Source: a virus
DNA length: 64,000 nt
Virus record (IMG/VR): IMGVR_UViG_3300042291_002084
Location: 1-64,000 of that record
Direction: 5' to 3' (one strand)
The notes beneath the pieces were generated by a model. That model searched no databases, was not told the DNA's origin, and worked only from the letters and a program-made list of their open reading frames with translations. Of this stretch, positions 7,864 to 62,427 are shown piece after piece. Every line of letters begins with the position of its first letter. The first letter of the stretch is position 1. The translations under genes were made by a program, and so were the position numbers.

Positions 7864-8457
7864 TTAGTTTTTTCTTACCATACCAAGTTTGGAGATAATC
7901 GTGTTGATTACTGATCCAATTAGAGACCCTCCATTTACTGTAGCAACCTGGCCATTTACACCGGTTGGAGCTCCTTTTGCTGGTGCCTTTTCAATTGGAA
8001 TAGCAGCCAACTTTGGGTCTGCGCTTAGGTGTTGAGTAAGAGCATCGATAACTCCTTGATCGATCATAGCGTCCTTTGCAAAAGGCTTCGCGATAGTAAT
8101 AATAGCATTCATTAAACCCGAATCAAGTTTATCGTAGAGGCTAAGAATCACCTGACCTTGAGACATCTTGTTATCTACTGCCATACGATCAATCATACCC
8201 ATCGTACTTGCATACACTGGTTGCATGATTGCATCAACAGCTGCCTTGTTCTCTGGAGATCCTTTAGTATATTTCGGATCATCATTATCCCCAACCTGAG
8301 CGTTTAGGATTTTCGCTTTTTCACTGCCCGCAGTATTAGCACTAATCGAATCGATCAGACCTTTAAAGTCGTCTCTATATCGAGTTACTAATTTCAAGAA
8401 TCCAATACTTTTAGATTCAAATAACTGATGAGCATCTCTAGTTAATAGGTGTTTCAT
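7864..8457 (-). CDS. tagged putative virion-internal protein, 197 aa
   Basis: Residues 1-14 (MKHLLTRDAHQLFE, then Ser) fit the window-wide tag: a short basic/aromatic start ending in Leu/Ile/Phe-x-Glu. The body is helical (residues 20-150), followed by an Ala/Pro/Gly-rich linker and a hydrophobic C-terminal segment (about 175-192). Unlike its early neighbours it has a GATAAATAA late-type promoter and no cassette leader, so it is probably expressed late. By analogy with T4 internal proteins the tag may direct it into the prohead and be removed after Glu14. Body function unknown. Confidence 0.7.
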   Translation of the reverse strand: MKHLLTRDAHQLFESKSIGFLKLVTRYRDDFKGLIDSISANTAGSEKAKILNAQVGDNDDPKYTKGSPENKAAVDAIMQPVYASTMGMIDRMAVDNKMSQGQVILSLYDKLDSGLMNAIITIAKPFAKDAMIDQGVIDALTQHLSADPKLAAIPIEKAPAKGAPTGVNGQVATVNGGSLIGSVINTIISKLGMVRKN

Positions 8458-8473
8458 AGTAATAGTTTTCTTA

Positions 8474-8482
8474 TTATTTATC
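8474..8482 (-). promoter_or_regulatory. late promoter GATAAATAA
   Basis: Matches the T4 late -10 box (TATAAATA) with G at position 1. It lies about 17 nt upstream of the ATG at 8457. Confidence 0.65.
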
Positions 8483-8504
8483 TAGAGACCGGCTAGGATA
8501 AGAC

Positions 8505-8529
8505 AAAAAGAAACCGGATTACTCCGGTC
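8505..8529 (-). terminator. intrinsic terminator
   Basis: Minus-strand hairpin ACCGGA-gtaa-TCCGGT then TTCTTTTTG, after gene 8536-8883. Confidence 0.7.
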
Positions 8530-8535
8530 TATCAC

Positions 8536-8883
8536 TTAATAGAAAAGACTAAGTAGTCCAGCCACTTCTTCCTCACTTGCTCTTCTAAAAGAGTCCCGAT
8601 CCGGAGTCAGGCTAGGATGAGCACTAACCGCTTGGTGATAAGCTTCTTCTAGACTAGTCGCCCATTCCTGATTCCAACCACCCTCTTCAAAATTATAGGT
8701 CCACTCTACCTTGGTAACGGGTCCCGATCCTAGGTGACTCAGCTGACGAGCAACAAAATACTCTAGACTTTCAGCAGCTTTCCTGATTCCTGCCCTGTCT
8801 CCAGCTTGGGTAGCCTCAACCAACTTACCACTCCAGTATTCTATCTTCTTAGCATACCCGTTTTCATAATTAAATTTTTTCAT
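8536..8883 (-). CDS. hypothetical protein, 115 aa
   Basis: Unrecognised soluble protein. Residues 1-48 are probably helical; residues 62-75 hold a Trp-rich strand segment; the end is helical and acidic. Leader-type promoter upstream and its own terminator. Confidence 0.7.
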   Translation of the reverse strand: MKKFNYENGYAKKIEYWSGKLVEATQAGDRAGIRKAAESLEYFVARQLSHLGSGPVTKVEWTYNFEEGGWNQEWATSLEEAYHQAVSAHPSLTPDRDSFRRASEEEVAGLLSLFY

Positions 8884-8896
8884 AGTCTTTAAGTCT

Positions 8897-8920
8897 TTAA
8901 GTTATACTATAAATATAACC
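8897..8920 (-). promoter_or_regulatory. cassette leader/putative early promoter, copy 14
   Basis: Minus strand GGTTATATTTATAGTATAAC, upstream of the ATG at 8883. Confidence 0.55.
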
Positions 8921-8986
8921 ATAATACTCTAATGGATAATGCGTTTACTAAGATAAATTTAATAAATGTCTAGAGACACTTTTGGA

Positions 8987-9190
8987 TTAACCAATAGTGT
9001 AGGGAAGTTGCGCGCCACTTTGGTCAAGTACACTAGCCGCTTTTACTAGAGTCGAGATTCGGTTATACATACCCGTTGCATACTTCTTCATGCCCTCTAC
9101 AACTTCTGCACTTGGATCTTTTATATCCTTCAACATGTCTAATACCATGCCATTAATAAATTGCTCTTTTACTTCATCTGTTATTGCCAT
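8987..9190 (-). CDS. hypothetical helical protein, 67 aa
   Basis: Unrecognised, mostly helical. It has no standard cassette leader; instead the ATG follows a purine-rich stretch (AGAAGAGAGAAAAAAGAAG) adjoining the GC-rich region. Last minus-strand gene before the transcription switch. Confidence 0.6.
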   Translation of the reverse strand: MAITDEVKEQFINGMVLDMLKDIKDPSAEVVEGMKKYATGMYNRISTLVKAASVLDQSGAQLPYTIG

Positions 9191-9805: not shown

Positions 9806-9814
9806 TATAAATAA
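9806..9814 (+). promoter_or_regulatory. late promoter TATAAATAA
   Basis: Exact match to the T4 late -10 box, 16 nt before the ATG at 9830. First late promoter of the plus-strand block. Confidence 0.75.
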
Positions 9815-9829: not shown

Positions 9830-10225
9830 ATGAAAAATAATGTAAAAAACTTTAGTCAATTCGTGAATGAAAGCGGACTGGGATATGGCTGGGCAAATCG
9901 TAAAGACCTACGTAAAGAACTAGTTGGAGGTAAAGGTCAAAAAAGAGAATATGATGAGCTTTCAGAACCAGATAGAATGGAGCTAGAAGGTCTATTTGCT
10001 AGTATTAACTTACGTGGAGAAGAAAGAGCAAAGTTAATACTTGCTAACTTTACTAATAAACTTTCAAAATTTAACACACTTGAAGAAATTAAGGCTGCAC
10101 TTGAAATTGCTCGTGAAGAGTTAGATACTAAGTTCGCGCCTGGAGATAATGAAGAGTCAAACTGGAGTGGTCGTGACTCTTCAGCAGGTGAAGAAGGATA
10201 TTATGACCAAGAAGAAGAATATTAA
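9830..10225 (+). CDS. tagged putative internal protein, 131 aa
   Basis: Begins with the tag MKNNVKNFSQFVNE followed by Ser. The tag closely resembles those of the next genes, while the bodies differ. Body: charged, helical from residue 35 to 105, with an acidic Glu/Tyr-rich tail. Transcribed from a TATAAATAA late promoter, apparently with the following three genes. Probably packaged in the capsid with cleavage after Glu14; body function unknown. Confidence 0.75.
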   Translation: MKNNVKNFSQFVNESGLGYGWANRKDLRKELVGGKGQKREYDELSEPDRMELEGLFASINLRGEERAKLILANFTNKLSKFNTLEEIKAALEIAREELDTKFAPGDNEESNWSGRDSSAGEEGYYDQEEEY

Positions 10226-10245: not shown

Positions 10246-10626
10246 ATGAAAAACAGGGTAAAGAGATTTGGTCAATTCATCAATGAAAACATGCATGATG
10301 AAGATATGGAATTTACACCTAGACAACAGGAATATCTGGACTCATATGCAAACGATCGCCATAGCGAATATAATGAGTTAAAAGGAGAACTTGGAAGAGA
10401 ACAAGGAGCTAGACCAAAAGCAGCTATTATCTGGAACCCTGAGACAAAGGATATAGAGATAATTTTTATGTCTGATCCTACTCGCGATCAACACGGTTTC
10501 GAAGACGAAAAAGAAGCAAACCCTGAGGTTGAGATCTACTTTGTAGAATTCGATGAGACTGCGTCAATCAGAACAGTCGGTGGAGAGCTTGATCTAGAAG
10601 ACGTTAAAGTATTAGGAAGGCTGTAA
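10246..10626 (+). CDS. tagged putative internal protein, 126 aa
   Basis: Tag MKNRVKRFGQFINE followed by Asn. The body starts with an acidic stretch and a Tyr-rich helix and contains several beta-type segments (residues 60-115). An AATAAATA box and the leader AAAAATTTAGATTATG are repeated upstream, as before 9830. No known domain recognised. Confidence 0.75.
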   Translation: MKNRVKRFGQFINENMHDEDMEFTPRQQEYLDSYANDRHSEYNELKGELGREQGARPKAAIIWNPETKDIEIIFMSDPTRDQHGFEDEKEANPEVEIYFVEFDETASIRTVGGELDLEDVKVLGRL

Positions 10627-10641: not shown

Positions 10642-11130
10642 ATGATACTAGGATTTAATGATTTTATAAATGAGGAAACTCAAGAAAATAGAAATTATCG
10701 CTGGGCTGGGATAAAAAAAGATAGAGCAGATCAATTTATGCGGCAGGCAATGAGCAACAATCGTGATTCTAGATATTTAGCAGCTAAAAGTAAATATTGT
10801 AATGAGGAAGGTTTACGTATATTAATGAATGATCGCGACCCAAGTATTCGAAGAAGAGTAGCATTGAATCCATATACCCCAGCGAGTATTTTAAAAGATA
10901 TGTTGCACGATGAAAAACTTCACCTATTAATCGCATCTAATCCTAATGCTTCACCGGAAATTCTTCGTGAACTATCAAGCTCAACTGATGATCAAGTTAT
11001 ATCTAAAATTGCTGGAAATAGAAATGCGCCAATTGACCTACTACTTAAATTGGAAAACTATCCAGATGGGGTAACTAGAGGAAATGCTAAACGTAACAAG
11101 ACGCATATTGCCTGGAGAGCTGCTCAATGA
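10642..11130 (+). CDS. tagged LRV-repeat protein, 162 aa
   Basis: Tag MILGFNDFINE, then about four helical repeats of the LRV type (Val-Ala-x-Asn-Pro-x-Thr-Pro-x-x-x-Leu) from residue 45 to 150. Recognisable units begin near Ala-Leu-Asn-Pro, Ala-Ser-Asn-Pro and Ala-Gly-Asn-Arg. LRV repeats form short right-handed solenoids that probably bind partners. The gene at 13477-13992 is a second tagged LRV protein. Sixteen bases separate it from the upstream gene, so it is in the same late operon. Confidence 0.75.
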   Translation: MILGFNDFINEETQENRNYRWAGIKKDRADQFMRQAMSNNRDSRYLAAKSKYCNEEGLRILMNDRDPSIRRRVALNPYTPASILKDMLHDEKLHLLIASNPNASPEILRELSSSTDDQVISKIAGNRNAPIDLLLKLENYPDGVTRGNAKRNKTHIAWRAAQ

Positions 11131-11164: not shown

Positions 11165-11524
11165 ATGAAAAATAATGTAAAACGATTCGGTCAATTCATC
11201 AATGAAGGATATCGAGAAGACGGGAGTCATAGTGGCTACCAAGAAATGAAAGGTCAGCGTGGAGAACCAACTAAAGGAATAGCAGTTTGGGAATTTGGTG
11301 AGGGCTTTGGAGCAGAATGGTCAACAGTTTCGTATGCTGGAAAAGAAATGGACGTTCCATTCGACGGTGACGAAGATTATGCTGACGACGGTAACTTTAC
11401 ACAAGAAGGATTTAGTAAAATCTTTAAATGTGCTGAAGAACTTGGCGCTGATCCAGAGATGGTGTATTCAGCGGAAGATGGTAAACTTATATATTCAGAC
11501 CAGGATGTAAGTCAAGGTATATAA
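11165..11524 (+). CDS. tagged putative internal protein, 119 aa
   Basis: Tag MKNNVKRFGQFINE followed by Gly, nearly the same as in 9830 and 10246. The body is acidic with aromatic residues and no recognised motif. Last gene of the first late operon, followed by a strong terminator. Confidence 0.75.
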   Translation: MKNNVKRFGQFINEGYREDGSHSGYQEMKGQRGEPTKGIAVWEFGEGFGAEWSTVSYAGKEMDVPFDGDEDYADDGNFTQEGFSKIFKCAEELGADPEMVYSAEDGKLIYSDQDVSQGI

Positions 11525-11612: not shown

Positions 11613-12182
11613 ATGAAATACCTTACTCGCTATCCTAAACCTCTATTGGAAAATGATGATGAAGATGATAGTGATCTTCTACTTGATTTTGAAGCGTTAG
11701 GTCTCCTAAAGCCAGAACAGATGGCAGAATCCCGACGCGCCAAATTTATCCAGAGTCTAGTAGATCTATTTAGTAGAGTAGGTATTGAGTGGAGAGATAC
11801 TGCCTCAAGTCAATCCCGAAGTCGTGGTACCCAAGTTCCTCGACTAACTGAAGAGGAAGCCTATCAATTGGTTATGAGTGCCGCACCTGATATTATCCAG
11901 AGTTTAAGCCGTAATCGAGCTACGAAATTAACTCGTATCCATCAGGAGATCTCTTCATTAGGGGATTGGACTCGACCTGATAATCCCTTAACCTATTGGA
12001 TTCAACCAGCTGGGGTACGAACACAATATTATGGCAGATTCTCCCCAACTACCCCTAAGCCAACAGTCTCAAGTTTTATTAAATTTAATGGTGAACTTAC
12101 CCCAAAGGAGATGATTGCACTCTTTGTAAATCAAGTGGCTATTGACTTGTCACCTCGACTAATCCACCGATCCCAAAGGTAA
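11613..12182 (+). CDS. tagged hypothetical protein, 189 aa
   Basis: N-terminus MKYLTRYPKPLLE followed by Asn fits the tag, though it lacks the usual Phe. Next comes an Asp-rich patch (residues 15-24) and a helical, Arg-rich body with no recognised domain. It has its own late promoter. About 115 bp of noncoding sequence follow before the next promoter. Confidence 0.7.
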   Translation: MKYLTRYPKPLLENDDEDDSDLLLDFEALGLLKPEQMAESRRAKFIQSLVDLFSRVGIEWRDTASSQSRSRGTQVPRLTEEEAYQLVMSAAPDIIQSLSRNRATKLTRIHQEISSLGDWTRPDNPLTYWIQPAGVRTQYYGRFSPTTPKPTVSSFIKFNGELTPKEMIALFVNQVAIDLSPRLIHRSQR

Positions 12183-12267: not shown

Positions 12268-12276
12268 GATAAATAA
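12268..12276 (+). promoter_or_regulatory. late promoter GATAAATAA
   Basis: Late-type box 22 nt before the ATG at 12298. Confidence 0.65.
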
Positions 12277-12297: not shown

Positions 12298-13461
12298 ATG
12301 TTGCATATCCAGGATTATTGGCACTTTATTAGTGAACAGGAAAAGTTTAGTCTTGACCCTAAACAGCTACCCCAAAAGTCAGATCGACTAGGTAAAGGTG
12401 GAAGTTTCGAGACAAGTCTCTATGGTAACAAGACTAAAGAGGAATATTTCAAAATACTTAAAGCCAAAGACCCCAAAACAATTAAGAGGATACGTTTGAT
12501 CTTTCCTGGTAATAACTGGGAAGTGATTGCCCTAAAATTGGTTAAAACACTAGGCGTAGTTACTGGAGTATTTACCAATATTGAGACTGCTAATAGATTT
12601 ATTAATGGATTAGTAAGCAAAGGCGTAACTGCAGACGAATTAGTAATTGGTTCACATGGCCAATATGGACAATTGTTGTCACCTAAACAGGGAGACTCAT
12701 ACTATTTTGACAATAGCTTTCTTAAATCATTTAAACCACTGGTTCACAAAGGCACAAAAGTATTTTTTACTGCCTGTCATGGAGCAGATTATCTAGATTC
12801 ACTTAAGGATGCATCCGAAAAACTTGGAGTGCCGGTATATGGCTCAGCAGGTATCTATAACTATATAACCAATGCAAGTGAAAAAGGTTTCTATCTTTGT
12901 TTTCCTGCAAAATTTGAAACGGGCAAGGAAAAGTCAATTTCCGCAGTCTACTTGGATAGTGAAACAAACGGTTATCGAATTACCTGGAAAGAGGGCGACA
13001 CTCAGGGAGTAACTGGAGAAAAGGTAAGAGTAACACTAGACCCTTCTATATTTGGAATAAAACTTGCACCAATTACAATTGGAACTCAACCAATAAATAT
13101 AGAAACCGCTCGAACTTCCGAAGTTCGCGCAGCTAATTCAGTAATGAGAGTAGATGTTGACCTATTGCAAGAACTAGAAAAATCAATGTATACTGACCCA
13201 GCAATATATGCTAAATTTAAAGCTAAGCTTAATAGGATGCCAGGTAACGATAAGTGGGACAAGCAGGTAGCACTTCAAAAATCCCTAATTGATAATTTCA
13301 ACAAGGGCCTAGTTAAGATTGAAATTAGTAAAGCTTCTAATTGGGTAAATATCAAGACACTAAAGGATGTAACCTTCTATAAAGAAATAGACAATCAATA
13401 TCTTTTAAATCATGGGCTATGTAAAAGATACGATAATCCACCAGTGAGCTGGCTAGACTAA
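12298..13461 (+). CDS. tagged caspase-like (clan CD) cysteine protease, 387 aa
   Basis: Tag MLHIQDYWHFISE, then a domain with the two hallmarks of clan CD peptidases. A hydrophobic strand runs into His-Gly (Leu-Val-Ile-Gly-Ser-His120-Gly). A second strand ends in Ala-Cys-x-Gly (Val-Phe-Phe-Thr-Ala-Cys160-His-Gly). These match the His/Cys dyad of caspases, gingipains and DUF4347-type domains. After Cys160 the sequence Val-Pro-Val-Tyr-Gly-Ser resembles the next strand of that fold. Residues 200-387 are an unassigned C-terminal region. If the tag works as in T4, this protease is carried in the capsid and delivered to the host. Activity and substrate are unknown. Confidence 0.75.
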   Translation: MLHIQDYWHFISEQEKFSLDPKQLPQKSDRLGKGGSFETSLYGNKTKEEYFKILKAKDPKTIKRIRLIFPGNNWEVIALKLVKTLGVVTGVFTNIETANRFINGLVSKGVTADELVIGSHGQYGQLLSPKQGDSYYFDNSFLKSFKPLVHKGTKVFFTACHGADYLDSLKDASEKLGVPVYGSAGIYNYITNASEKGFYLCFPAKFETGKEKSISAVYLDSETNGYRITWKEGDTQGVTGEKVRVTLDPSIFGIKLAPITIGTQPINIETARTSEVRAANSVMRVDVDLLQELEKSMYTDPAIYAKFKAKLNRMPGNDKWDKQVALQKSLIDNFNKGLVKIEISKASNWVNIKTLKDVTFYKEIDNQYLLNHGLCKRYDNPPVSWLD

Positions 13462-13476: not shown

Positions 13477-13992
13477 ATGAAATATATTAAAGGATACAGA
13501 CTATTTGAAAATAAGTTGCTTAGTGAGTGGACTCCTGAAGAGATTAGGCCTACTCAAGATATCTCAGTAGAATTATTAGCTCAACTTTCAAAAAGCGAAG
13601 ATGACACTATTAAATATGCAGTCGCACAACATCCAAATACGCCAATGAGTGTATTAGAGGAGATGTTGGATACAACTGACTCTAATTTTATCTCTATTGA
13701 ATACTATGTAGCTAAGAATCCAAACTTATCACCAGAACTTGCAGTTAGGATAAGTCAATCTACTAGTGATAGTGTACGTGCGCAAATTGCAAAAAATCCA
13801 AATCTTCCTCTAGAAAATTTTGAAGAACTTGCCCAAGATCCTGACTGGTATGTTAGGTCAGTAATTGCACTAAGCGATAGAGTGTCAGATGAGATACTTT
13901 CAAAATTAGTTAGTGATGGCAACGAGCACGTAGTAAAGAGCGCGCGTATAGTAATTGATCATCGATTCCAAAGATTACTTAGTGAATTTTAA
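13477..13992 (+). CDS. tagged LRV-repeat protein, 171 aa
   Basis: Tag MKYIKGYRLFE followed by Asn, then about four LRV repeats (residues 48-150). Units read Val-Ala-Gln-His-Pro-Asn-Thr-Pro, Val-Ala-Lys-Asn-Pro-Asn-Leu-Ser-Pro and Ile-Ala-Lys-Asn-Pro-Asn-Leu-Pro. Solenoid repeats of this kind are binding scaffolds. It directly follows the protease gene (15 bp) and could be its partner or adaptor; that is inference. Confidence 0.75.
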   Translation: MKYIKGYRLFENKLLSEWTPEEIRPTQDISVELLAQLSKSEDDTIKYAVAQHPNTPMSVLEEMLDTTDSNFISIEYYVAKNPNLSPELAVRISQSTSDSVRAQIAKNPNLPLENFEELAQDPDWYVRSVIALSDRVSDEILSKLVSDGNEHVVKSARIVIDHRFQRLLSEF

Positions 13993-16191: not shown

Positions 16192-16554
16192 ATGAAAGAT
16201 CTAATATTTGCATATTCTCAATTTATTAATGAGTCTAGAACAGCTGGGCTAAATTTTATTGAATTCTCAAAAGCTCGACTTGAAGGTGCCTCTAAGATTA
16301 CCAAAATGGCTAAGGAGAAGGGCGGATCTGCCTTATTAACATATCAACATTTTGTAGTTAAGTTACCTTATTATAAGAAGGCCTCACTTGGAAAATTTGA
16401 TAGTTCCATAATGCAAACGGAGCTTTCTAAACTAGTAAAAGACTTAGCTCGAGGGACCTCAAATAAAATTAGACTTGAGCAGGTAGAATTTCAAAGATTA
16501 GTTGGTAAAATTGAGGTAATTGGAGAGTTATTAATTAAGTTCCAAGATAAATAA
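16192..16554 (+). CDS. tagged hypothetical protein, 120 aa
   Basis: I place the start at the ATG at 16192, because it gives the tag MKDLIFAYSQFINE followed by Ser; an earlier in-frame ATG at 16093 would lie inside the previous gene. The body is basic and helical, with no recognised domain. It is the only tagged gene inside the fibre block. Confidence 0.75.
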   Translation: MKDLIFAYSQFINESRTAGLNFIEFSKARLEGASKITKMAKEKGGSALLTYQHFVVKLPYYKKASLGKFDSSIMQTELSKLVKDLARGTSNKIRLEQVEFQRLVGKIEVIGELLIKFQDK

Positions 16555-25968: not shown

Positions 25969-25987
25969 AAAATAAAAAAACCATAAA

Positions 25988-49721: not shown

Positions 49722-49732
49722 AAAATCATTGA

Positions 49733-50155: not shown

Positions 50156-50167
50156 AACTTTATTTTT

Positions 50168-51395: not shown

Positions 51396-51397
51396 AC

Positions 51398-51598: not shown

Positions 51599-51608
51599 AG
51601 TTATTGGT

Positions 51609-51947: not shown

Positions 51948-51950
51948 ATT

Positions 51951-53255: not shown

Positions 53256-53282
53256 ATTTCTTTTTTTAATTATAATACATAA

Positions 53283-53720: not shown

Positions 53721-54028
53721 TAGTTTGTTGATTTTTTAGATTCAAGATTGGAAACCCGTACGGTAAGATCATTAATCGCTGCTTCAAGCTCACGAAATGA
53801 TGATTTTTTAGTTGATTCATCATCCACATATAATTGATCTTCGCCAGTTTCTCCATAGTTACCAGCATAATAATCTGCTTGAAATGCGCTTGATCCTTCA
53901 AGTCCATTGTTTGGTGGGTTTTCACCATCTTGACCTCGTTCATCCCAATTTTTATCACTCCAATCAAGATCAGAGTTTTCATTAATTTTATAAGTCTGTA
54001 TAAATGAAGAAAAGTTTTTAACTCCCAT
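53720..54028 (-). CDS. tagged acidic putative internal protein, 102 aa
   Basis: Tag ends Phe-Ser-Ser-Phe-Ile-Gln-Thr-Tyr-Lys-Ile-Asn-Glu, followed by Asn. The body has a low-complexity Asp/Gly/Asn part and a short C-terminal coiled coil (residues 77-97). Similar in layout to the next gene (54111), so a paralogous pair. An AATAAATAA box lies upstream. Confidence 0.75.
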   Translation of the reverse strand: MGVKNFSSFIQTYKINENSDLDWSDKNWDERGQDGENPPNNGLEGSSAFQADYYAGNYGETGEDQLYVDDESTKKSSFRELEAAINDLTVRVSNLESKKSTN

Positions 54029-54057
54029 TTAATATAATCTTTTTTTTATTTATTAAA

Positions 54058-54087
54058 TAAAAAAAGCGAATGTTTCCATTCGCTTTT
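54058..54087 (-). terminator. intrinsic terminator
   Basis: AAAGCGAATG-gaaa-CATTCGCTTT followed by more T on the minus strand. Confidence 0.85.
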
Positions 54088-54110
54088 ATATAAACTTTTT
54101 TAAAGAATTT

Positions 54111-54437
54111 TTATTTTTCTTCAGCGTTTTCTTCACCTTCAGCAGGCTCTTCTCCTTCTTCACCTTCTTCAGAATCTTCCTCTTCTTCAGGCTCAAGTTT
54201 TTTAACTCTTTCAGAAAGATCATCAATCATAGATTTTAAATCTTCTAGAGTTAATTCTTCTTCTGGTTGCTCTTCATCACCTTCTTCAGAATCTTCAGCA
54301 TTCAGTGCTTCATCATCTTCTTCTGGATTTGCACCATAGTATCCAGACTCAGTGTCGTCGTTGTTGTAGTCTTCAAATCCTTCAGACTCGTTTAATGTAC
54401 GAGTTTTCATGAATCCTGCAAAGTTCTTTACTCTCAT
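54111..54437 (-). CDS. tagged, extremely acidic putative internal protein, 108 aa
   Basis: Tag ends Phe-Ala-Gly-Phe-Met-Lys-Thr-Arg-Thr-Leu-Asn-Glu, followed by Ser. The body is about half Glu and Asp, with a short coiled coil (residues 63-82) like that of 53720-54028. Small, very acidic capsid-core proteins are typical of T4-like proheads, where they counter DNA charge or act as scaffold. Own late promoter and terminator. Confidence 0.78.
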   Translation of the reverse strand: MRVKNFAGFMKTRTLNESEGFEDYNNDDTESGYYGANPEEDDEALNAEDSEEGDEEQPEEELTLEDLKSMIDDLSERVKKLEPEEEEDSEEGEEGEEPAEGEENAEEK

Positions 54438-54454
54438 TTTTAATAACTTTTTTA

Positions 54455-54463
54455 TTATTTATC
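54455..54463 (-). promoter_or_regulatory. late promoter GATAAATAA
   Basis: Late-type box 18 nt upstream of the ATG at 54437. Confidence 0.65.
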
Positions 54464-54473
54464 CTTGCTGATA

Positions 54474-54956
54474 CTATTTTTTCTCAGATTTAAACTGTTC
54501 AATCGTTTCATCAATAACTCGGATTTGTTCCATTGCTGGACGAAGTAACATCGATACTGCAAATAATCTATGTGCAGGCTCTTCACCCTTTCCTGTAACT
54601 TTACCTAGAAAGAAATTAATTGATTCTAGAGTAGTTGAAGGTAAACTAACAGTATGTCTCTCAGTTGAACGATCATCTACTTCTTTTAATTCACTAGATA
54701 ATGATAATAAAGCCATTAAGATTAAGTACGCTTCGTTTGGACCTTTCCACTCAACTTTATTGTTTAATAGATTTTTAACATATTTCAAATCAGCTGGAGA
54801 AATATTAATTTCAAAATTTCCCATTCTTCGCTGGATTAAAACATCAAGTTCAGACATAGGAGTCTCTACTTCATTTCCAAGCTGAGGCTCAACATTTTCA
54901 TTTTCGATAGTATTAACTACCTCTTGTTCTTCGATTGTGTTTGTTTCTTCTAACAT
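54474..54956 (-). CDS. hypothetical protein, 160 aa
   Basis: Residues 1-35 are Glu/Asn-rich and disordered; 40-155 are helical. No tag: the start is Met-Leu-Glu-Glu-Thr-Asn. Between tagged genes, so possibly a structural or assembly protein. Family unknown. Confidence 0.65.
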   Translation of the reverse strand: MLEETNTIEEQEVVNTIENENVEPQLGNEVETPMSELDVLIQRRMGNFEINISPADLKYVKNLLNNKVEWKGPNEAYLILMALLSLSSELKEVDDRSTERHTVSLPSTTLESINFFLGKVTGKGEEPAHRLFAVSMLLRPAMEQIRVIDETIEQFKSEKK

Positions 54957-55000
54957 AGTTTAATATTTTAAAGTATTAAACTATTGTAGTAGATAAGGTT

Positions 55001-56419
55001 TTAAGCAATAGTAAAGTTTTTTTCTATTGTTTCAGCTTTTGCAATCTCATTACTTGGAGCAGATGAACCGCCAGCATTAACCCTAACACAGGCTTCAATA
55101 GCAGACTTTTTATTAGTAAATGAATTAGGATCAATATTTAGATTCTTTAATCCGTTTATTATAAATGCAGCAGCTACTCGAGCAGAAAATTTAGGGTCAT
55201 TTAATTTATCAGGATCAGTAACAATATCAATTCCAGTTAAATCTGAATATCTTTGGTAATTTGATTTAAATGTTAATTGATTAAAACCTCTACCTCGATA
55301 TTTATAACCATCGCCTACTTTAGTATTACCAGTATTCCAACCTAAATTGTCAGTTGCAGTCGGACCATATACCTTATCGAAAAATGCAGATGGGCTAGAT
55401 TTAAGTTTAGTTAAAGCATCATCAGATAAGTCACTCACTCTAGATCCAAATAGACCTCGAATTCGCGCATTTGGGGTAGTTGCATAACTTAATTCGTTTT
55501 GTGGAATAAAATTACTCTCTTTTCCAATAGTTGATAATATCCCAATAATAGCATACTTATTAGTTACACCAAGAGATTTAATTTGACTAATTAGGGTATT
55601 AATATTTTGAGCTTGGGTACCAGTATAATTGGATTTTATTTCTTTATCTTCTAGTGCATCATCAATAAGTTCATCCGAATCTTCACTAGATAGGTCAGAC
55701 GTACCTACTTGATTTCCAGAATCGTCTAATCCAAATTTATCTTTAAACCATATAAAATGTTCTGGATGTTCAGCAAAGATATTATCTAATTCTTCTGGAG
55801 TAAGAGTAGGAGCCATATCTGGCATCATTCTAAAAAGCCAATCTAAGATTACTTGATTATTTAATATTCTTTCCCCTCGGGTTTTTCCTGGAGAGCTTTG
55901 ATATTCATCTTTTAAATCATTTGAATCATCTGAATCGCGACCAACTCGACGTACACCTATATGAATATGATCAAAGTGATCGGGTACTCGCCATCCAACT
56001 TGATATCGATATCCGCCAGAATTGAAATTAAACCATGAACCTCCTTTATATTCTGGATGACCACACCATTGCATTAAATGCGCAAGTAGAGTATCTCCAC
56101 TCTTTCCACTAGTTGCAATATCAATAGCATATGAATCATCTTGACCTTCATAGTGATCTGAGGTATTTCCGCTTGCAGTTTTTTCCTTAGATCTCTTTTG
56201 AGAAATAATAGTATTTTTTCCAACAAAATCATTAGCAATTTTAGCAAAAGCTAATGCTCTAGGCATACTTCCATCCCAGTCTCCACCCTTTCCGCCAACA
56301 TTTGCTTTACCGCTATCTAATGAGCCAACGGTTAATCCAAATGTTTTATCTGGATAGTTTGCATCAGGATCAAATGAAAATGTCTCGTTAAGTTTAACCC
56401 AATCTTTAAAAGTAATCAT
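55001..56419 (-). CDS. tagged bifunctional peptidoglycan hydrolase (M15-like peptidase plus GH19-like lysozyme), 472 aa
   Basis: Tag MITFKDWVKLNE followed by Thr. Residues 50-160 form an M15/LAS-type metallopeptidase: Ser-Asp-His89-Tyr-Glu-Gly and Asp100-Ile, then Asp-His-Phe-Asp-His151-Ile-His153-Ile-Gly supply the zinc ligands. Residues 265-470 resemble GH19 chitinase/lysozyme (Gly-Lys-Glu-Ser-Asn-Phe with candidate Glu; Tyr-Arg-Gly-Arg-Gly-Phe-Asn-Gln-Leu-Thr). The linker is acidic. Together they cut both peptide and glycan parts of the wall. The tag suggests it travels in the virion and acts at entry, though a lysis role is also possible. Confidence 0.82.
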   Translation of the reverse strand: MITFKDWVKLNETFSFDPDANYPDKTFGLTVGSLDSGKANVGGKGGDWDGSMPRALAFAKIANDFVGKNTIISQKRSKEKTASGNTSDHYEGQDDSYAIDIATSGKSGDTLLAHLMQWCGHPEYKGGSWFNFNSGGYRYQVGWRVPDHFDHIHIGVRRVGRDSDDSNDLKDEYQSSPGKTRGERILNNQVILDWLFRMMPDMAPTLTPEELDNIFAEHPEHFIWFKDKFGLDDSGNQVGTSDLSSEDSDELIDDALEDKEIKSNYTGTQAQNINTLISQIKSLGVTNKYAIIGILSTIGKESNFIPQNELSYATTPNARIRGLFGSRVSDLSDDALTKLKSSPSAFFDKVYGPTATDNLGWNTGNTKVGDGYKYRGRGFNQLTFKSNYQRYSDLTGIDIVTDPDKLNDPKFSARVAAAFIINGLKNLNIDPNSFTNKKSAIEACVRVNAGGSSAPSNEIAKAETIEKNFTIA

Positions 56420-56440
56420 TGCTTATTAATATGATTTTAA

Positions 56441-56449
56441 TTATTTATT
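56441..56449 (-). promoter_or_regulatory. possible late promoter AATAAATAA
   Basis: Weaker version of the late box, 22 nt upstream of the ATG at 56419. Confidence 0.45.
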
Positions 56450-56453
56450 TTAA

Positions 56454-56948
56454 TTATTTAGTTAAATGACGATCAATTATAATCAATTGACTTGTACTTA
56501 TTTTAGGATAAGCATCGTCTGCTGAAAGGAATCCAGCCCAATCAACTTCCTCCTCCTGTAGAGTAGATTTAGGTAATCTCTCACTATCTAATCCTATTTC
56601 AGAAAGATCTTCTATATTACATACAAAATAAATTAAGCGACCATCCGGTTTACCGTTCTTATAGAATATTACTTGGTGAGATTCTGGATCAAGTTGATCT
56701 TGTGAAAGAACAATAGAGGTCTCTTCTTCAAGTTCTCTAAGTGCAGCTAAGATTGGCTCCTCATCAGGACGATCCAATTTTCCTTTAGGAATACCTAAAG
56801 TTGGTTTTCTCCAAGAAGCATTTGTTGGGTGAACTAATAATATTTTATTATTCCAAATAATTGCAACACCTGCTGCTACTCTGTGTTCTTCTGGCATATC
56901 AATTGCCCATCGTTCATTAACGAACTCATTAAAATTTAATATTCCCAT
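56454..56948 (-). CDS. tagged Nudix hydrolase, 164 aa
   Basis: Tag MGILNFNEFVNE followed by Arg. Residues 55-79 form the Nudix box: Gly-Lys-Leu-Asp-Arg-Pro-Asp-Glu-Glu, then Arg71-Glu-Leu-Glu-Glu-Glu-Thr-Ser-Ile, with one extra residue in the first loop. It hydrolyses nucleoside diphosphates linked to another group (for example NAD, ADP-ribose, caps or dNTP derivatives). Being tagged, it may be injected to remodel host nucleotides or RNA caps at once. Substrate unknown. Confidence 0.85.
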   Translation of the reverse strand: MGILNFNEFVNERWAIDMPEEHRVAAGVAIIWNNKILLVHPTNASWRKPTLGIPKGKLDRPDEEPILAALRELEEETSIVLSQDQLDPESHQVIFYKNGKPDGRLIYFVCNIEDLSEIGLDSERLPKSTLQEEEVDWAGFLSADDAYPKISTSQLIIIDRHLTK

Positions 56949-56953
56949 TCTAA

Positions 56954-57811
56954 TTAATTTATATATTTGTTATAGTCAATTACTCCAGATGGTTTTAAGA
57001 GTAATGAGTCATAATATTTTTGTTTATAATATGGTTTAACGTGATCTTCAAACATTTTCTTTTTAAACCAGCTCGGAAGCTTGGCTGAATAGTAATCTTC
57101 ATATGCATCCTCATATAATTTTACACCTTGAGATGGCGTAAGATCAGATGACCGATTAATTGATTCTAGAAAAAGTTTTCCGTCCGATTCAATTAAGCTA
57201 ATTGAATAATATTCTGGAGACCATTTATCATTTATCTTTTTACAAATATCTAAAGCTTCACCAAGATGCTTCCAACGAGCCATATCAATATCAAAAGGAG
57301 TTTTATTAATTTTCTTTTGTACATGAATAGGTGAATCGCCTGAGGCAAGCACTTCAAATCTAGAGGAAGGTACTCTTTTTTCTTGAAAAGAGCTATATGG
57401 TTTTTCAGATTTCTTAAATTTTCCATATGTTTTAAACTCATCTTCCCCATTTGCAGAGTATCCAATAATTGGAAATTTCATCTTTTTTACAAGGGACCGA
57501 TCCTTTATTTTATTTGGAATAAATGATTCACCGTTAAATTCTGAATTTAATTCAGAGTTAGTTGGAATAGTCGATTGATTATAAACAGTACTACAAAAAC
57601 TTTCATCTATTTTATTTGATGAAAAACTAAAATTATTCCATTGAATAACAGGAATATCTTTAGGTATTTGTAGAGCAGATTCAATATTATTAACTACTTC
57701 AAACATTGGTAAATTACTTAACTTTGATGAAGCTAAGGCAATTTTCTTTTCAAAGTTTTTTGGATCCTTTGAATAATATGCAGAATAACTTTTAAAATTC
57801 TTTAAACTCAT
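56954..57811 (-). CDS. putative ATP-grasp-like protein, 285 aa
   Basis: Possible ATP-grasp features: Lys-Phe-Pro-Ile-Ile-Gly-Tyr-Ser-Ala-Asn-Gly-Glu (residues 112-123), then Phe-Gln-Glu-Lys-Arg and, late, Leu-Phe-Leu-Glu-Ser-Ile-Asn-Arg (about 220), which could be the metal-binding Glu and Asn. The N-terminus MSLKNFKSYSAYY looks like the tag but lacks the Glu site. Assignment is tentative. Five bases separate it from the Nudix gene and one from the next gene. Confidence 0.5.
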   Translation of the reverse strand: MSLKNFKSYSAYYSKDPKNFEKKIALASSKLSNLPMFEVVNNIESALQIPKDIPVIQWNNFSFSSNKIDESFCSTVYNQSTIPTNSELNSEFNGESFIPNKIKDRSLVKKMKFPIIGYSANGEDEFKTYGKFKKSEKPYSSFQEKRVPSSRFEVLASGDSPIHVQKKINKTPFDIDMARWKHLGEALDICKKINDKWSPEYYSISLIESDGKLFLESINRSSDLTPSQGVKLYEDAYEDYYSAKLPSWFKKKMFEDHVKPYYKQKYYDSLLLKPSGVIDYNKYIN

Positions 57812-57812
57812 C

Positions 57813-59654
57813 TTATTTAAACTGGGAGAAACGGCTACTTGCGCTTGGAGTAAACGACTTAGCCTCAGTTTCTTGATCAGCAGTTATTTTTTGTATATCT
57901 TTATCTAAATTATCAGCAACTTCATGATCAACTACATCACCTTCTCCTCCTCTAGTAACTTCGCCACGACCGATTGCATCAAAGAATTCGTCAAACTCAT
58001 TATCTACTTTATCTTTATCGTAGTTATCCATTACTACTCTCATAATCGCTGGTTCACCATGTAATCTAGCAAAGTGATTTTGATAATCTAATACTCTATC
58101 GTATGTTTCTTTATCTCTAGAATCAAGTTCAACATATGGCACGTATACTGCACCAGTCTCCTCTCTTTTCTTTTTAATTTGTTTATCAACCCAATCATTA
58201 TAGCCTCCATTTCCATGGCCTTCAACTTCTTTTTTAGTCCATTCGCCAGGCTTACCAGTCCATGGTTTACCGTGAATAATCTTCCAAATTTGTTTTCCTA
58301 TAAAGAATGGGAGACTTGCCATTGCTGCTTTTGGAAATTTAGGTAAAGTCTTGGTTGTCCATGAAACGAGTCGGGCACGTATTCCAGGATGAGTTGCAAT
58401 ATTTCCGATTCCTTTTTGATATGCTGCAAATTCAGCAGCTGTAGTAAATAGTTTATCTGCGCCAGCGGCTCCGCCATATCGTACCTCTTTTATTCCAGAT
58501 TTAACAAAGGACTCAGAAGGTATGCGCCCTATCATTTTTCCCTCTTTACTATATGCATATAATAATTTACCATCATCACTTAATTTAAAAGTACTACCGA
58601 CTTTTGCAGCATTATCCATTTTTTCAATAGCTTCTTTTGCAAGTCGAGTATCTAATAATTTAAATGAGTCACAAAAAGTGGTCATTTTTGTTCCAAAATT
58701 AGTAAGAGATTTTCCTAAGAACTCAAAGATCGGACGAAGCATTAATCCTAGTCCTGGAATATAATCTGTAACTTTAGCAAAGTTTTGGATAAATTTACCA
58801 AGCAGGGTTGTGCCCGATCCAATAGCTCCACCGATTAGTGATACTATCTTTCTAAGTAATCGTATAACCATACCAGATTCCTTTGTACTTAGTCGAGAAA
58901 CAGCAACTGCTGCTTCATCAACTTGACCGGCAGATAATTTAACTAGTATTGGACTCGCAGAGTGCGCACCCCATTTTAAAGGTTTTAACATATCACCGCC
59001 GCCAATTACTAAAGCAGCAATAAGTGATATTGTACCCAACATATATTTTTTACGAACAAAATATATTATTGCGTTTATTAAATCTGCAACAACGCCTACT
59101 CCTGGAAAAATAAAATCTCCGACTACTCCAATAATATCAATAACAAATTGAAGTATTCCAATAGGGGATCCATTTTCTGTACATGCAAGGTATAACTTTT
59201 TAAGAACTGACCAGAACCCACTATTTGTTCGGGCAGTATGTGGTCCACCAGTAAAAGCAGTAGTTAAATCAGCTGGGGTAAATGCATCTGATCCTGGAGC
59301 AAGAGACATATCTGACTCTGCTAAAAATAGTCCTTTTAAATAATCCTTAAATGTATCGATTGACTCAGTTATTTCTTGGGAATCTGGAAATATTTTACGA
59401 GCAGATTCTAGAATAGAATTTGTTCCAGTTGTCATTCCTCGATAATAATCTGAAATTGCATTTTTTCCTTGATCTAAGATCATTGAAAGATGCAGGTCAA
59501 ATAAGGCTGACTCTGAAATACTTGATTCAATTGAATTAATAAACATTGACTCATTAATAATTGAATCAACAGTAAGTCGATTACTTGAGTTTAATACTTT
59601 ATTTAAACTATTAAATTGTTCAATTTGACTTTCATTTATTACGAAATCTGACAT
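57813..59654 (-). CDS. tagged pore/pretoxin-like hydrophobic protein, 613 aa
   Basis: Starts MSDFVINE followed by Ser, a short version of the tag. Further candidate cleavage sites (Ile-Ile-Asn-Glu-Ser, Phe-Leu-Ala-Glu-Ser) lie within the first 115 residues. Residues 165-225 are strongly hydrophobic (Val-Val-Gly-Asp-Phe-Ile-Phe-Pro-Gly-Val-Gly-Val-Val-Ala-Asp, Ile-Tyr-Phe, then Ala-Ala-Leu-Val-Ile-Gly-Gly-Gly-Asp). They recall the pretoxin helical hairpin of polymorphic toxins; a second Gly-rich hydrophobic part spans 275-330. The acidic C-terminus is soluble. May insert into the host membrane during DNA entry. Late promoter upstream. Confidence 0.65.
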   Translation of the reverse strand: MSDFVINESQIEQFNSLNKVLNSSNRLTVDSIINESMFINSIESSISESALFDLHLSMILDQGKNAISDYYRGMTTGTNSILESARKIFPDSQEITESIDTFKDYLKGLFLAESDMSLAPGSDAFTPADLTTAFTGGPHTARTNSGFWSVLKKLYLACTENGSPIGILQFVIDIIGVVGDFIFPGVGVVADLINAIIYFVRKKYMLGTISLIAALVIGGGDMLKPLKWGAHSASPILVKLSAGQVDEAAVAVSRLSTKESGMVIRLLRKIVSLIGGAIGSGTTLLGKFIQNFAKVTDYIPGLGLMLRPIFEFLGKSLTNFGTKMTTFCDSFKLLDTRLAKEAIEKMDNAAKVGSTFKLSDDGKLLYAYSKEGKMIGRIPSESFVKSGIKEVRYGGAAGADKLFTTAAEFAAYQKGIGNIATHPGIRARLVSWTTKTLPKFPKAAMASLPFFIGKQIWKIIHGKPWTGKPGEWTKKEVEGHGNGGYNDWVDKQIKKKREETGAVYVPYVELDSRDKETYDRVLDYQNHFARLHGEPAIMRVVMDNYDKDKVDNEFDEFFDAIGRGEVTRGGEGDVVDHEVADNLDKDIQKITADQETEAKSFTPSASSRFSQFK

Positions 59655-59670
59655 TATGATTCTTTTCTTA

Positions 59671-59679
59671 TTATTTATC
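59671..59679 (-). promoter_or_regulatory. late promoter GATAAATAA
   Basis: Late-type box 17 nt upstream of the ATG at 59654. Confidence 0.65.
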
Positions 59680-59717
59680 TAGTCAGATACGAATTTCGCT
59701 TAATTTACTAGGTTCAC

Positions 59718-60797
59718 CTAAAGTAAGGCAATGAATTCGTTAGGTCTAACATTTTTTAAATAAGAGTCTATGAAATACTTATATGCTTGTTTTAATCCAT
59801 CATCATCACATTCAGATAAATATGCGTATATTTCATAAAGATCGTCAAGAGTATTAAATGAAAATGCTGAACATATCCAATCAAATTTATATGAAACTGG
59901 AATCAATCCAAATATCATAGCTTCAAATATTCTAGCTGGTATAAATTGACGTTCATCATACTTATCCTTAGTAATATTTAACATGACTCTGCCGATTTCT
60001 AAAGTATTCCAAATATGTTCACGATCATTTCTTAATACGTGATAAGTGCGTTCACGATCAAATTGTTGAAATTCTTTTTCTTTACAAATTAAATAAAATG
60101 GTACCCCTTTTGAATTAGACTCATTATTAACCCAGTCCAATGAATCAAATAAGATTGAATTCTTAGAGTTTCCAGCTTTATAATTTGAAGTATCAATATT
60201 TCCATAGAATACTGAAACTGGTCGATTTATCTTATCGTAAGTTGACATATTTACATCAACACATTCTTGTAAAAATTTATTAGATATTCCTGGAAAATCA
60301 ATAGACGGTATAATAATAGTTACAAAACATTTATATTTTTCATGAAATACTTGAGAAAGAGAAAGATCAGTATCTAAGATGAGTATTTGATGTGGTAAAT
60401 AACCAGCAGAAACGGCGGCCTCAATGATTAGCTCAAACTCGCGAGCATCTTTCCATTTCTTAGATAAAGTTGAAAGATTTCTAAATCTAGCTTTTAAATA
60501 TAATTTACTATACTCTTTATTTCGTATTTTTTCAATAACTAGATTTATATCATAATATGTATTTTCAATTAATTCCGTTTTGTATTTATTAAAAATATCG
60601 CCTCTTTCATCTGATGGAAAGGATTTAATTTGGGCAGATTCAATAACTTCTTCTGGATAATATGAATAAAAATCAAATTTATCTTCCATAAATGATTCTC
60701 TAATTGAATCAATTAATCCAAGTTGATATAGTGAGTGTCCTGGAGAATCTATATCATGTAGGTCAAGTAAACCGAAATAAGAGTATAAGCTTTTCAT
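59718..60797 (-). CDS. putative GT-B glycosyltransferase, 359 aa
   Basis: The C-terminal half has the GT-B signature region Ile-Pro-Ala-Arg-Ile-Phe-Glu-Ala-Met-Ile-Phe-Gly-Leu-Ile-Pro-Val (near 297-312), where Glu usually contacts the sugar nucleotide. Before it, Arg-Val-Met-Leu-Asn-Ile and Val-Phe-Tyr-Gly-Asn-Ile fit Rossmann strands. Could glucosylate phage DNA or decorate surface sugars. It neighbours an FkbM methyltransferase, which often works on glycans. Confidence 0.7.
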   Translation of the reverse strand: MKSLYSYFGLLDLHDIDSPGHSLYQLGLIDSIRESFMEDKFDFYSYYPEEVIESAQIKSFPSDERGDIFNKYKTELIENTYYDINLVIEKIRNKEYSKLYLKARFRNLSTLSKKWKDAREFELIIEAAVSAGYLPHQILILDTDLSLSQVFHEKYKCFVTIIIPSIDFPGISNKFLQECVDVNMSTYDKINRPVSVFYGNIDTSNYKAGNSKNSILFDSLDWVNNESNSKGVPFYLICKEKEFQQFDRERTYHVLRNDREHIWNTLEIGRVMLNITKDKYDERQFIPARIFEAMIFGLIPVSYKFDWICSAFSFNTLDDLYEIYAYLSECDDDGLKQAYKYFIDSYLKNVRPNEFIALL

Positions 60798-60889
60798 ATT
60801 TTATATTTTTAATTATAATACACTAAATTATAGTAGATATTAATATTTACATATTAATCTTTAGGTTTCATCTGGGTGAACCCTAATAT

Positions 60890-60919
60890 AAAAAATGAGC
60901 GCCTATTCAGACGCTCATT
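60890..60919 (-). terminator. intrinsic terminator
   Basis: ATGAGCG-tctgaatag-gCGCTCAT followed by TTTTTT on the minus strand; ends the methyltransferase gene. Confidence 0.85.
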
Positions 60920-60944
60920 ATGAGGTAAAGGAAAATTGAAAGTA

Positions 60945-61745
60945 TTAATTGTTTTTCAAGGCAACAATATGAGTAATAAAGTTTTTACCATACTCCACTG
61001 CATCGATTTTACGAACAACATCAAAGTTTTCTTCAAGAATAGAAACTATCTCTTGGAATTTTTCAACACGATTCGTTTTTAATGGTTTGTACATAAAGTG
61101 ATATTCAATAATAAATACTCGAACATTAGACCAATCAGTAACTGATTTGATTAATTCGTATTCAGCACCTTCAACATCCATTTTAATCGCAGTTGCTCCA
61201 TGTTCTTTAATAGCAGCATCAATATTGATTGCTGGAACATGCAAGATCTCACGACCACGAATTGGTAAAATTGAATGTTTTCCAGAGTCATTAGATATAA
61301 AAAAGTCAACCGCTTCTTCATTTCCTGGAACAATTGCTTTTTGTACAACTGTACAGTTTGACTCTACTCCATTTACTTTAATATTTTCTAGAGCAAATGA
61401 TGCATTGTGTGGAAGAGCTTCATAAGAAACTACACTTTGTATTTTTGGAAATTGTCTAGCCATACGAATAGCAAATAATCCAATATGGCCACCAATATCT
61501 AACCATTTATCTTCTTGATTAAATACTGCATTTACATCCATTTCTGGACCATATGCAGAAGAAGTAAGAGGTTTAATATATTCTCCACTTTTTGGGCTTT
61601 TTGAAACGTTTGTCCCAACGTTATACTTAACTTCATTTAATCCTTTTCGGATATAAAATTGAAAGTCACCATATTTTGTTTTCCAATCGATCAATTCTAA
61701 TTGATCGAATTTTTTAGCAGTGTTAAAGTCTATACGAGTATCCAT
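60945..61745 (-). CDS. FkbM-family methyltransferase, 266 aa
   Basis: SAM-binding motif Trp-Leu-Asp-Ile-Gly-Gly-His-Ile-Gly (residues 77-85), acidic Tyr-Glu-Ala at the end of the second strand, and the family hallmark Ile-Lys-Met-Asp-Val-Glu-Gly-Ala-Glu-Tyr-Glu-Leu (near 187-198). FkbM enzymes O-methylate sugars or other small substrates. Together with the glycosyltransferase it suggests a glycan-modification pair. Own terminator. Confidence 0.9.
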   Translation of the reverse strand: MDTRIDFNTAKKFDQLELIDWKTKYGDFQFYIRKGLNEVKYNVGTNVSKSPKSGEYIKPLTSSAYGPEMDVNAVFNQEDKWLDIGGHIGLFAIRMARQFPKIQSVVSYEALPHNASFALENIKVNGVESNCTVVQKAIVPGNEEAVDFFISNDSGKHSILPIRGREILHVPAINIDAAIKEHGATAIKMDVEGAEYELIKSVTDWSNVRVFIIEYHFMYKPLKTNRVEKFQEIVSILEENFDVVRKIDAVEYGKNFITHIVALKNN

Positions 61746-61768
61746 CTAAATATTGTTTTTATGTATTA

Positions 61769-62053
61769 TTATACTGCAGGAACTTCTTTAGTTTTAGCAG
61801 GTGATGGTTTTACTCTTTCAATTGTAAGAATACCTTGGTTAACAGATGTAGAAAAATTAATGTTTTTCTTTTTAGCATAGTACCATACTAACCCTCGAGT
61901 ATTTTGGATCTCTTGAGTAGATGTAAATCCTGAAATTTCAAAGAAAGTACCAACTTTTAATGCGTCTAATCTTTCTTTAATTACTGAAGTTACAGGTTTC
62001 ATTGCGATTTTTGCTGATTTCTTGATCGGCCCGATTTTAATAGAATTTTTCAT
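61769..62053 (-). CDS. hypothetical basic protein, 94 aa
   Basis: Basic start (Lys-rich residues 1-30), then a small domain with Gly-Leu-Val-Trp-Tyr-Tyr-Ala-Lys-Lys-Lys (54-63) and a Pro/Lys tail. Resembles small nucleic-acid-binding proteins in composition; family unknown. Confidence 0.65.
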   Translation of the reverse strand: MKNSIKIGPIKKSAKIAMKPVTSVIKERLDALKVGTFFEISGFTSTQEIQNTRGLVWYYAKKKNINFSTSVNQGILTIERVKPSPAKTKEVPAV

Positions 62054-62106
62054 AATAATTAGTTTTTATTTTTGGTTATTATACATATAAATTAAACTAA
62101 TTAAAA

Positions 62107-62136
62107 TAAAAAAGGGATATTTTTTAAATATCCCTT
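62107..62136 (-). terminator. intrinsic terminator
   Basis: AAAGGGATATTT-aaa-AAATATCCCTTT followed by TTTA on the minus strand, after gene 62140-62427. Confidence 0.85.
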
Positions 62137-62139
62137 TGA

Positions 62140-62427
62140 TTATACATTTAAATCTCGAGTAGTCGGCAGCTTTTTGCTTGTCTTCTTTACTTTATGTTTT
62201 TTAGTTAGTTCCATTTTTTCAAGACTTGACTCTTTAAATCTTTCATTTTTAAATCCAATCATAACTAGATAAGAGGATCCTTCGATTGCAGTTATCTTGC
62301 CAATTCGATCTTTGACTTTTACTGATTCGCCAATTTTAAATTTTTGAGTATTCTTGATAAATGGATCGAGCGACTCTTTTAGGGAGCCGCTCATAAAATC
62401 CTGATATGATAAAATTAAAGATTTCAT
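62140..62427 (-). CDS. putative tagged KOW/SH3-like protein, 95 aa
   Basis: N-terminus MKSLILSYQDFMSGSLKE followed by Ser has the Tyr-Gln-Asp-Phe core of the tag but a longer tail before Glu. Residues 30-65 (Phe-Lys-Ile-Gly-Glu-Ser-Val-Lys-Val-Lys-Asp-Arg-Ile-Gly-Lys-Ile) look like a small KOW/SH3-type barrel that could bind RNA or protein. Lys-rich tail. Overlaps the upstream gene by four bases. Confidence 0.6.
   Translation of the reverse strand: MKSLILSYQDFMSGSLKESLDPFIKNTQKFKIGESVKVKDRIGKITAIEGSSYLVMIGFKNERFKESSLEKMELTKKHKVKKTSKKLPTTRDLNV

Follow-up and report, generated by a model that had tools for sequence, protein, structure and literature searches.

The window analysed here is a 64-kb stretch of a 70,167-base IMG/VR virus fragment (IMGVR_UViG_3300042291_002084), and many of its otherwise unrelated proteins begin with the same kind of short N-terminal tag. 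We consider this to be, in all likelihood, T4-style capsid targeting, greatly expanded. The tags probably (about 82% by our estimate) act as T4-type capsid-targeting propeptides, by which a protein would be docked on the head core, cut by an S77 protease, packed and probably ejected. This interpretation had been proposed in an original prediction made from the DNA letters, and it is supported at the sequence level by a gp21-family protease and an [IV]LE/G or S capsid site (the slash marks the cut) in relatives and in a contig (L265) that likely belongs to the same phage, by conserved tags, by a late-type promoter in common with structural genes, and by the first ranking of T4 ipII and ipIII in a tag search.

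The tag combines an aromatic pair ([FYW]xx[FYW]) with a cut site ([LIVMF]xE), and the two are either fused into a compact form (for example, FGQFINE/N and YKQFILE/A) or spaced (FKDW-VK-LNE/T, FAGF-MKTRT-LNE/S and FPKW-TNITK-LNE/S). All 21 gene starts of the original prediction were present, the one at 16192 being an internal ATG within a longer open reading frame (ORF). The compact form [FYW]xx[FYW][LIVMF]xE is carried by eight of them (9830, 10246, 10642, 11165, 12298, 16192, 35967 and 56948(-)), and the spaced form, with 1-8 residues between the pair and [LI]xE, by nine (30451, 32291, 34103, 36331, 38099, 54028(-), 54437(-), 56419(-) and 62427(-)). The claim of at least 20 tagged proteins thus holds in part: 17 of the 21 have both aromatic pair and cut site, three (8457(-), 11613 and 59654(-)) have only [LIF]xE followed by Ser or Asn, together with a late-promoter motif at -25, and one (13477) is doubtful, its motif being ambiguous and the promoter motif missing. 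The closer orthologues of 59654(-) retain [LI]xE/S (VLNE/S, TLTE/S and TLNE/S). As in T4, the predicted propeptides are short (~10-20 residues) and sit on unrelated mature proteins, the aromatics of the 17 are equivalent to positions 4 and 7 of IPIII, and L/I-x-E ends the propeptide, with V or F in place of L/I in a few tags. The tag at 35967 was rightly described as nearly the T4 form, as MQNRAKTYKQFILE/A is close to the IPII/IPIII tag.

Expected motif counts were obtained from internal positions of the same proteins. The literal motif of the original prediction, [LIVMF]xE plus a small or polar residue, is weak (33 genes versus 18 expected) and was rejected as evidence by itself. The compact motif was found in 7 window genes (0.2 expected) and the combined motif in 15 (1.3 expected). 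A tag profile trained on N-termini from three other contigs (G003-G005; cut-off of at least 7 bits) detected nine genes in the window (0.6-0.8 expected), so the tags are recovered with independent training. It also detected 16 in G001 (1.0 expected) and 13 in G002 (1.3 expected), 36 in the huge phage W02 (462 kb; 3.4 expected) and, within the first 400 kb, 30 in W01 (636 kb; 2.7 expected) and 42 in W04 (735 kb; 2.7 expected). The system is therefore not a peculiarity of the window phage, being present in 462-735 kb phages as well. When the same profile was run blind on T4, ipII and ipIII were the two top matches, followed by gp61.1. The controls gave 1 match in PAU (1.4-1.6 expected), 0 in MaF61 (0.5-0.6) and 5 in Lak (2.8; no clear excess), and pT24 (7 versus 1.8-2.0) and MA9V-1 (5 versus 1.0) were intermediate. 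T4 gp61.1 (NC_000866 18966-19130(-), L326) is a 54-residue hypothetical protein that starts with MKTFKEFIKE/D and scores like ipII and ipIII; it is possibly a further T4 internal protein.

Could these be chance [LI]xE motifs near the N-termini of AT-rich genes? The near-chance count of the loose motif and the four loose or ambiguous candidates among the 21 fit that explanation, but the compact and combined motifs exceed chance by 10-30 fold, the profile was cross-validated on independent contigs, and orthologues of the window proteins retain the tag with mature parts diverged to 30-83% identity. We regard coincidence as hardly credible for the set as a whole, and for the core set of 17 it is refuted by the motif excess, the cross-validation and the orthologue conservation. 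Look-alikes do occur. The DNA ligase at 51951-53255(-) starts with MRHSDDFKLLREFVNEM and matches the phage ligase family from residue 12; it and 37810(-) match the motif without a late-type promoter and were treated as chance, and the motif matches of RecA-like and ribonucleotide-reductase-like genes of the relatives were likewise judged chance. An alignment of 133 tagged proteins (A1) was chosen by motif, and its consensus is not independent evidence.

In G000-G005, the promoter motif [AGT]ATAAATAA precedes 60 of the 107 tagged genes by ~25 bases, as against 153 of the 968 others (odds ratio 6.8, p=9e-19), the tagged set having been picked by motif and not by promoter. It also precedes many structural genes and the protease-scaffold fusion gene described below, and it resembles the T4 late promoter, TATAAATA. 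A phage-encoded sigma-70-family factor (30925-31809(-); PHROG 351, E=1.5e-42) adjoins a block of tagged genes.

The S77 protease (PF03420) was detected in two of the larger relatives, G001 and G002, where its gene encodes a fusion of ~650 residues with the protease first, including conserved DHP and SSRAAG motifs, and scaffold repeats after it. The fusion profile matches the T4 gp21 structure 5JBL (E=3e-5), and the PHROG 207 head maturation protease matches residues 16-400 (E=4e-34). In the scaffold part, a unit of 14 residues that resembles the tag core (xYxxYLAE) is repeated ~11 times in tandem (for example, NYTEYIKESVNGSI KYQNYLAEELDKNI QYTEYVAEGANRGI). Relatives of the fusion are encoded by 33 viral contigs, and the arrays are longer and cleaner in the huge phages W01, W03, W04 and W07 (YSEYIAENLDKNI). 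Cultured and Lak phages were rejected as array carriers, as among the matches listed only the uncultured 462-735 kb phages align through the repeats, with 252 weaker records falling outside those matches. The gene after the fusion encodes a gp23-like capsid protein, whose propeptide ends in P[IV]LE/G or S in 18 of 18 contigs (KPLLE/GEG in T4 gp23). Two other proteases were seen: an S77 protease with in-frame TAG codons in W08 (Lak-B8, 400 kb), and in MA9V-1 (OR050627 126193-130544) a protease fusion of 1347 residues, with an abundance of INES motifs and no 14-mer array, directly downstream of a tagged 86-residue protein (MKTFTCFINE/A).

Positions 49450-63973 of the window (14.5 kb) are matched at 99.93% identity by contig L002, which comes from sample 3300049596. 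L265, from the same sample, carries the fusion and capsid genes, has a GC content of 0.318 (0.329 in the window record) and shows the highest tetranucleotide correlation with the window (0.912) of 11 contigs tested; it likely belongs to the window phage, whose head module would then resemble that of the relatives. The gp21-like protease that the original prediction called for was thus found in the relatives and in L265, and not in the 70-kb fragment.

Tag-like cores inside proteins were counted as [FYWH]xx[FYWH][LIVMF]xE across all proteins of each contig. The fusion had the most, with 10 in G001, 10 in G002, 12 in W01 and 4 in W02, and no other protein there had more than 2. In W04 the fusion had 15 and the next protein, a repetitive tape-measure-like one, 7, a count that such repetitive proteins inflate. 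No protein stood out by this count in G000 and the fragments without the protease gene. A sharp profile built from the scaffold repeats alone finds the tags weakly (4 in the window versus 0.9, at the lowest cut), and sequence identity of tag and repeat is therefore not claimed. Genetics of T4 IPIII assigned targeting to residues 4 and 7 (Tyr, Phe) and processing to residues 8 and 10 (Ile, Glu) (PMC9026906), which coincide with the aromatic pair and the I-x-E of MKTYQEFIAE. Our own reading is that the pair would dock and the remainder would be cut. We further suggest, tentatively and at slightly below even odds, that the cargo tag mimics a scaffold repeat at the molecular level: the core would polymerise via 14-residue Y-x-x-Y-[LIV]-x-E units, and a protein with one such unit at its N-terminus would join the core and be cut free by the fused protease.

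The shared pattern might instead reflect nothing more than protease recognition (Glu at P1, an aliphatic residue at P3 and aromatic subsites upstream), with tag and repeat alike as substrates and targeting located elsewhere in the proteins. The scaffold repeats need cutting too, the capsid propeptide has the same [IV]LE/G, and tag and repeat agree at class level only, all of which would suit this explanation. Against it, the capsid propeptide has no aromatic pair beside its site, a fixed subsite would not tolerate the 1-8 residues between pair and cut site of the spaced tags, and targeting and processing map to different residues of T4 IPIII (4/7 and 8/10; PMC9026906). We therefore judge it unlikely, with perhaps a one-in-several chance. 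Far less probable is a function that has nothing to do with the head, either as a signal to another compartment (tail, phage nucleus or membrane) or as a translation leader. Some tagged genes do lie near baseplate-like genes, but the cut site is the same as that of the capsid protein, the tags are like the scaffold repeats, and T4 ipII and ipIII were found blind; with a translation leader, an amino-acid pattern would not be expected to persist.

Several points weigh against capsid targeting or its link to the scaffold. The evidence is drawn entirely from sequence, and PF03420 is absent from the 70-kb record, which is a fragment. AlphaFold gave only low-confidence helices for the fusion repeats, too weak for use, and the tagged genes of W01 and W02 showed no clear enrichment of ATAAATAA. 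Tag and repeat match at class level only, most clades having Y..Y and A before Glu in the repeats and F..F/W and N in the tags. Moreover, tagging does not depend on the array: Chryseobacterium phage MA9V-1 has ~4 strong tags and a fused protease without it, and the tags of T4 also work without one.

With capsid targeting as the preferred interpretation, a plausible course of events is as follows. About 17-20 unrelated proteins of the 70-kb fragment, and probably more per genome, would be made late from T4-like late promoters. The N-terminal aromatic pair would dock each of them on the head-assembly core, which in this clade is predicted to be one polypeptide, a gp21-like protease with about eleven 14-residue scaffold repeats of the tag-like unit xYxxY[LIV]xE. 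Tagged cargo may enter the core as one more repeat of the scaffold and be cut at the same motif at which the scaffold itself is diced, the S77 protease cleaving after [LIVMF]xE and freeing the mature proteins inside the head. The mature cargo would be packaged together with the DNA and would probably be ejected into the host at the next infection, serving to overcome defences and to gain control of the cell.

The 133 tagged proteins, from eight contigs, are mostly without family. Recognised cargo includes Nudix (5), leucine-rich repeat (6), peptidoglycan-binding (3) and GH19 (2) proteins, ART-PolyVal (ADP-ribosyltransferase), CHAP and polynucleotide kinase phosphatase, and one 2H phosphoesterase passes the Acb1 cut-off. 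A counter-defence role for part of the set is reasonable, because T4 IPI, IPII and IPIII inhibit type IV restriction enzymes (PMC12373910). For the largest known phages, most of whose genes have no function, the sequence rule would predict the set of injected proteins and tie it to head assembly. Candidates for anti-defence and host-takeover roles can be drawn from the cargo list, most of which is unannotated. As to what the T4 capsid-targeting sequence (CTS) binds in the core, the repeat array points to a concrete and testable answer. If the mimicry is true, the addition of one short peptide would be enough to bring any gene into an injected set of dozens of proteins, counter-defence proteins included.

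Table 1 Tagged genes, weaker candidates and late-promoter-like motifs in the window. Promoter positions are relative to the gene start; tag coordinates are given before each tag.
Feature	Position	Strand	Tag and remarks
Weak candidate	7864-8457	-	MKHLLTRDAHQLFE/S; loose motif only; late-promoter motif at -25
Tagged protein	9830-10225	+	9830-9871 MKNNVKNFSQFVNE/S; compact; promoter -24; tagged orthologues G001, G003
Tagged protein	10246-10626	+	10246-10287 MKNRVKRFGQFINE/N; compact; promoter -21
Tagged protein, LRV repeats (Pfam LRV)	10642-11130	+	10642-10674 MILGFNDFINE/E; compact
Tagged protein	11165-11524	+	11165-11206 MKNNVKRFGQFINE/G; compact; promoter -29; tagged orthologue G004
Weak candidate	11613-12182	+	MKYLTRYPKPLLE/N; loose motif; promoter -25
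Tagged protein	12298-13461	+	12298-12336 MLHIQDYWHFISE/Q; compact; promoter -30
Doubtful candidate, LRV/HEAT repeats (Pfam LRV)	13477-13992	+	MKYIKGYRLFE/N; ambiguous motif; no promoter
Tagged protein	16192-16554	+	16192-16233 MKDLIFAYSQFINE/S; compact; tagged orthologues G002, G003, G004 (48-75% identity)
Tagged protein, GTG start	30451-30852	+	30451-30510 MKTKHIIHFPKWTNITKLNE/S; spaced; promoter -24; tagged orthologue G003
Tagged protein	32291-33499	+	32291-32335 MSYIKNYSNWLRLFE/Q; spaced; promoter -29
Tagged protein	34103-35965	+	34103-34153 MSMHIIQDFSKWKKINE/Q; spaced; promoter -25; tagged orthologues G002, G003, G004
Tagged protein	35967-36326	+	35967-36008 MQNRAKTYKQFILE/A; compact; orthologue G003 (MIGRAKTYQQFINE)
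Tagged protein	36331-37278	+	36331-36372 MELLDFNYWTSIVE/S; spaced; tagged orthologue G003
Tagged protein, P-loop-like GPSATGKT	38099-39019	+	38099-38143 MKYIKLYEQFRLILE/Q; spaced; tagged orthologue G003
Tagged acidic protein	53720-54028	-	53978-54028 MGVKNFSSFIQTYKINE/N; spaced; promoter -26; tagged orthologues
Tagged acidic coiled-coil-like protein	54111-54437	-	54387-54437 MRVKNFAGFMKTRTLNE/S; spaced; promoter -26; resembles 53720-54028
Tagged endolysin-like protein, C-terminal chitinase/GH19-like domain	55001-56419	-	56384-56419 MITFKDWVKLNE/T; spaced; promoter -30; PHROG endolysin and chitinase; tagged orthologues
Tagged Nudix hydrolase (Pfam NUDIX)	56454-56948	-	56913-56948 MGILNFNEFVNE/R; tagged orthologues in 5 other contigs
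Weak candidate	57813-59654	-	MSDFVINE/S; no aromatic pair; promoter -25
Tagged small protein	62140-62427	-	62374-62427 MKSLILSYQDFMSGSLKE/S; spaced; tag region kept in L039, L041, L044, L045, G001, G003
Late-promoter-like motif of 9830	9806-9814	+	TATAAATAA
Late-promoter-like motif of 12298	12268-12276	+	GATAAATAA
Late-promoter-like motif of 34103	34078-34086	+	GATAAATAA
Late-promoter-like motif of 54437(-)	54455-54463	-	GATAAATAA

The orthologues of 54437(-) in G001-G005, L003 and L006 have the aromatic pair and a nearby E, and its product is possibly a minor core protein. The AlphaFold model of 12298-13461 was of too low confidence for use.

The window is probably a piece of a large T4-like contractile phage with a Bacteroidota host, because a baseplate protein in the last 6 kb (L001, presumed gp26-like by resemblance; 74 loci found in viral contigs) is matched best by proteins of uncultured 462-735 kb phages, of Lak phages, of large Bacteroidota phages such as MA9V-1, pT24 and MaF61, and of PAU. 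The first 20 kb had no near match among 50,697 phage records. The thymidylate synthase (44719-46602(-)) is split into two ORFs (46285-46602(-) and 44719-45669(-)) that flank an HNH-like endonuclease ORF (45666-46316), the interruption probably being an intron or similar insertion. Eight tRNA genes (Asn x2, Asp, Pro, Met x2, Leu and Arg) are clustered at 39876-41566(-). Two neighbouring large proteins (23346-29527(+)) have the common start MENFN.YQQVI.ALKA.YV.AR, the second with additional tandem repeats SDGKILVGG.FTTYNG, and a secreted-looking protein (33509-33988(-)) matches a PHROG that carries the annotation sporulation protein (CAP/SCP-like). At 59718-61745(-), genes of the glycosyltransferase-like and FkbM-like methyltransferase-like types lie amid structural genes, and a long run of comparable genes occurs in G002 (~36-52 kb).

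Among known systems, T4 is closest. The CTS of IPI-III and Alt (MKTYQEFIAE/A), with gp21 and gp22, is alike in tag length, aromatic pair and [LI]xE cut site, and T4 has the S77 protease and a gp23-like capsid protein with a matching site, as do the relatives of the window phage. However, tagged proteins number a handful per genome in T4, where gp21 and gp22 are separate and no 14-mer repeat array is present, whereas the window phage group has ~10-40 tags per contig, spaced variants and the protease-scaffold fusion with tag-like repeats. In phiKZ and SPN3US many head proteins are likewise cut by a gp21-type protease and then ejected, with 19 cleaved head proteins in phiKZ and 201phi2-1 (PMC10052503). 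No common short tag has been reported there, and the propeptides of SPN3US are mostly long, exceeding 100 residues in several proteins (PMC5694885), unlike the 8-20 residues of the window tags. Longer, fused proteases are already grouped in PHROG 207, as its match to fusion residues 16-400 indicates. In the literature searched, we found no paper on capsid-targeting tags in huge phages and no mention of a likeness between the repeat unit and cargo tags. The novelty claimed in the original prediction is accordingly narrower than stated: the principle is known, with at least 10 internal proteins in T4-like phages as a group (PMC12373910) and the 19 of the phiKZ type (PMC10052503), and what stands is how many proteins of a genome share one short tag, together with the link to the scaffold. 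Compared with these systems, the features that appear new from the sequences are how many tags a genome has, the spaced form of the tag, a repeat-array scaffold that is joined to the protease in one protein, and the resemblance of tag and repeat.

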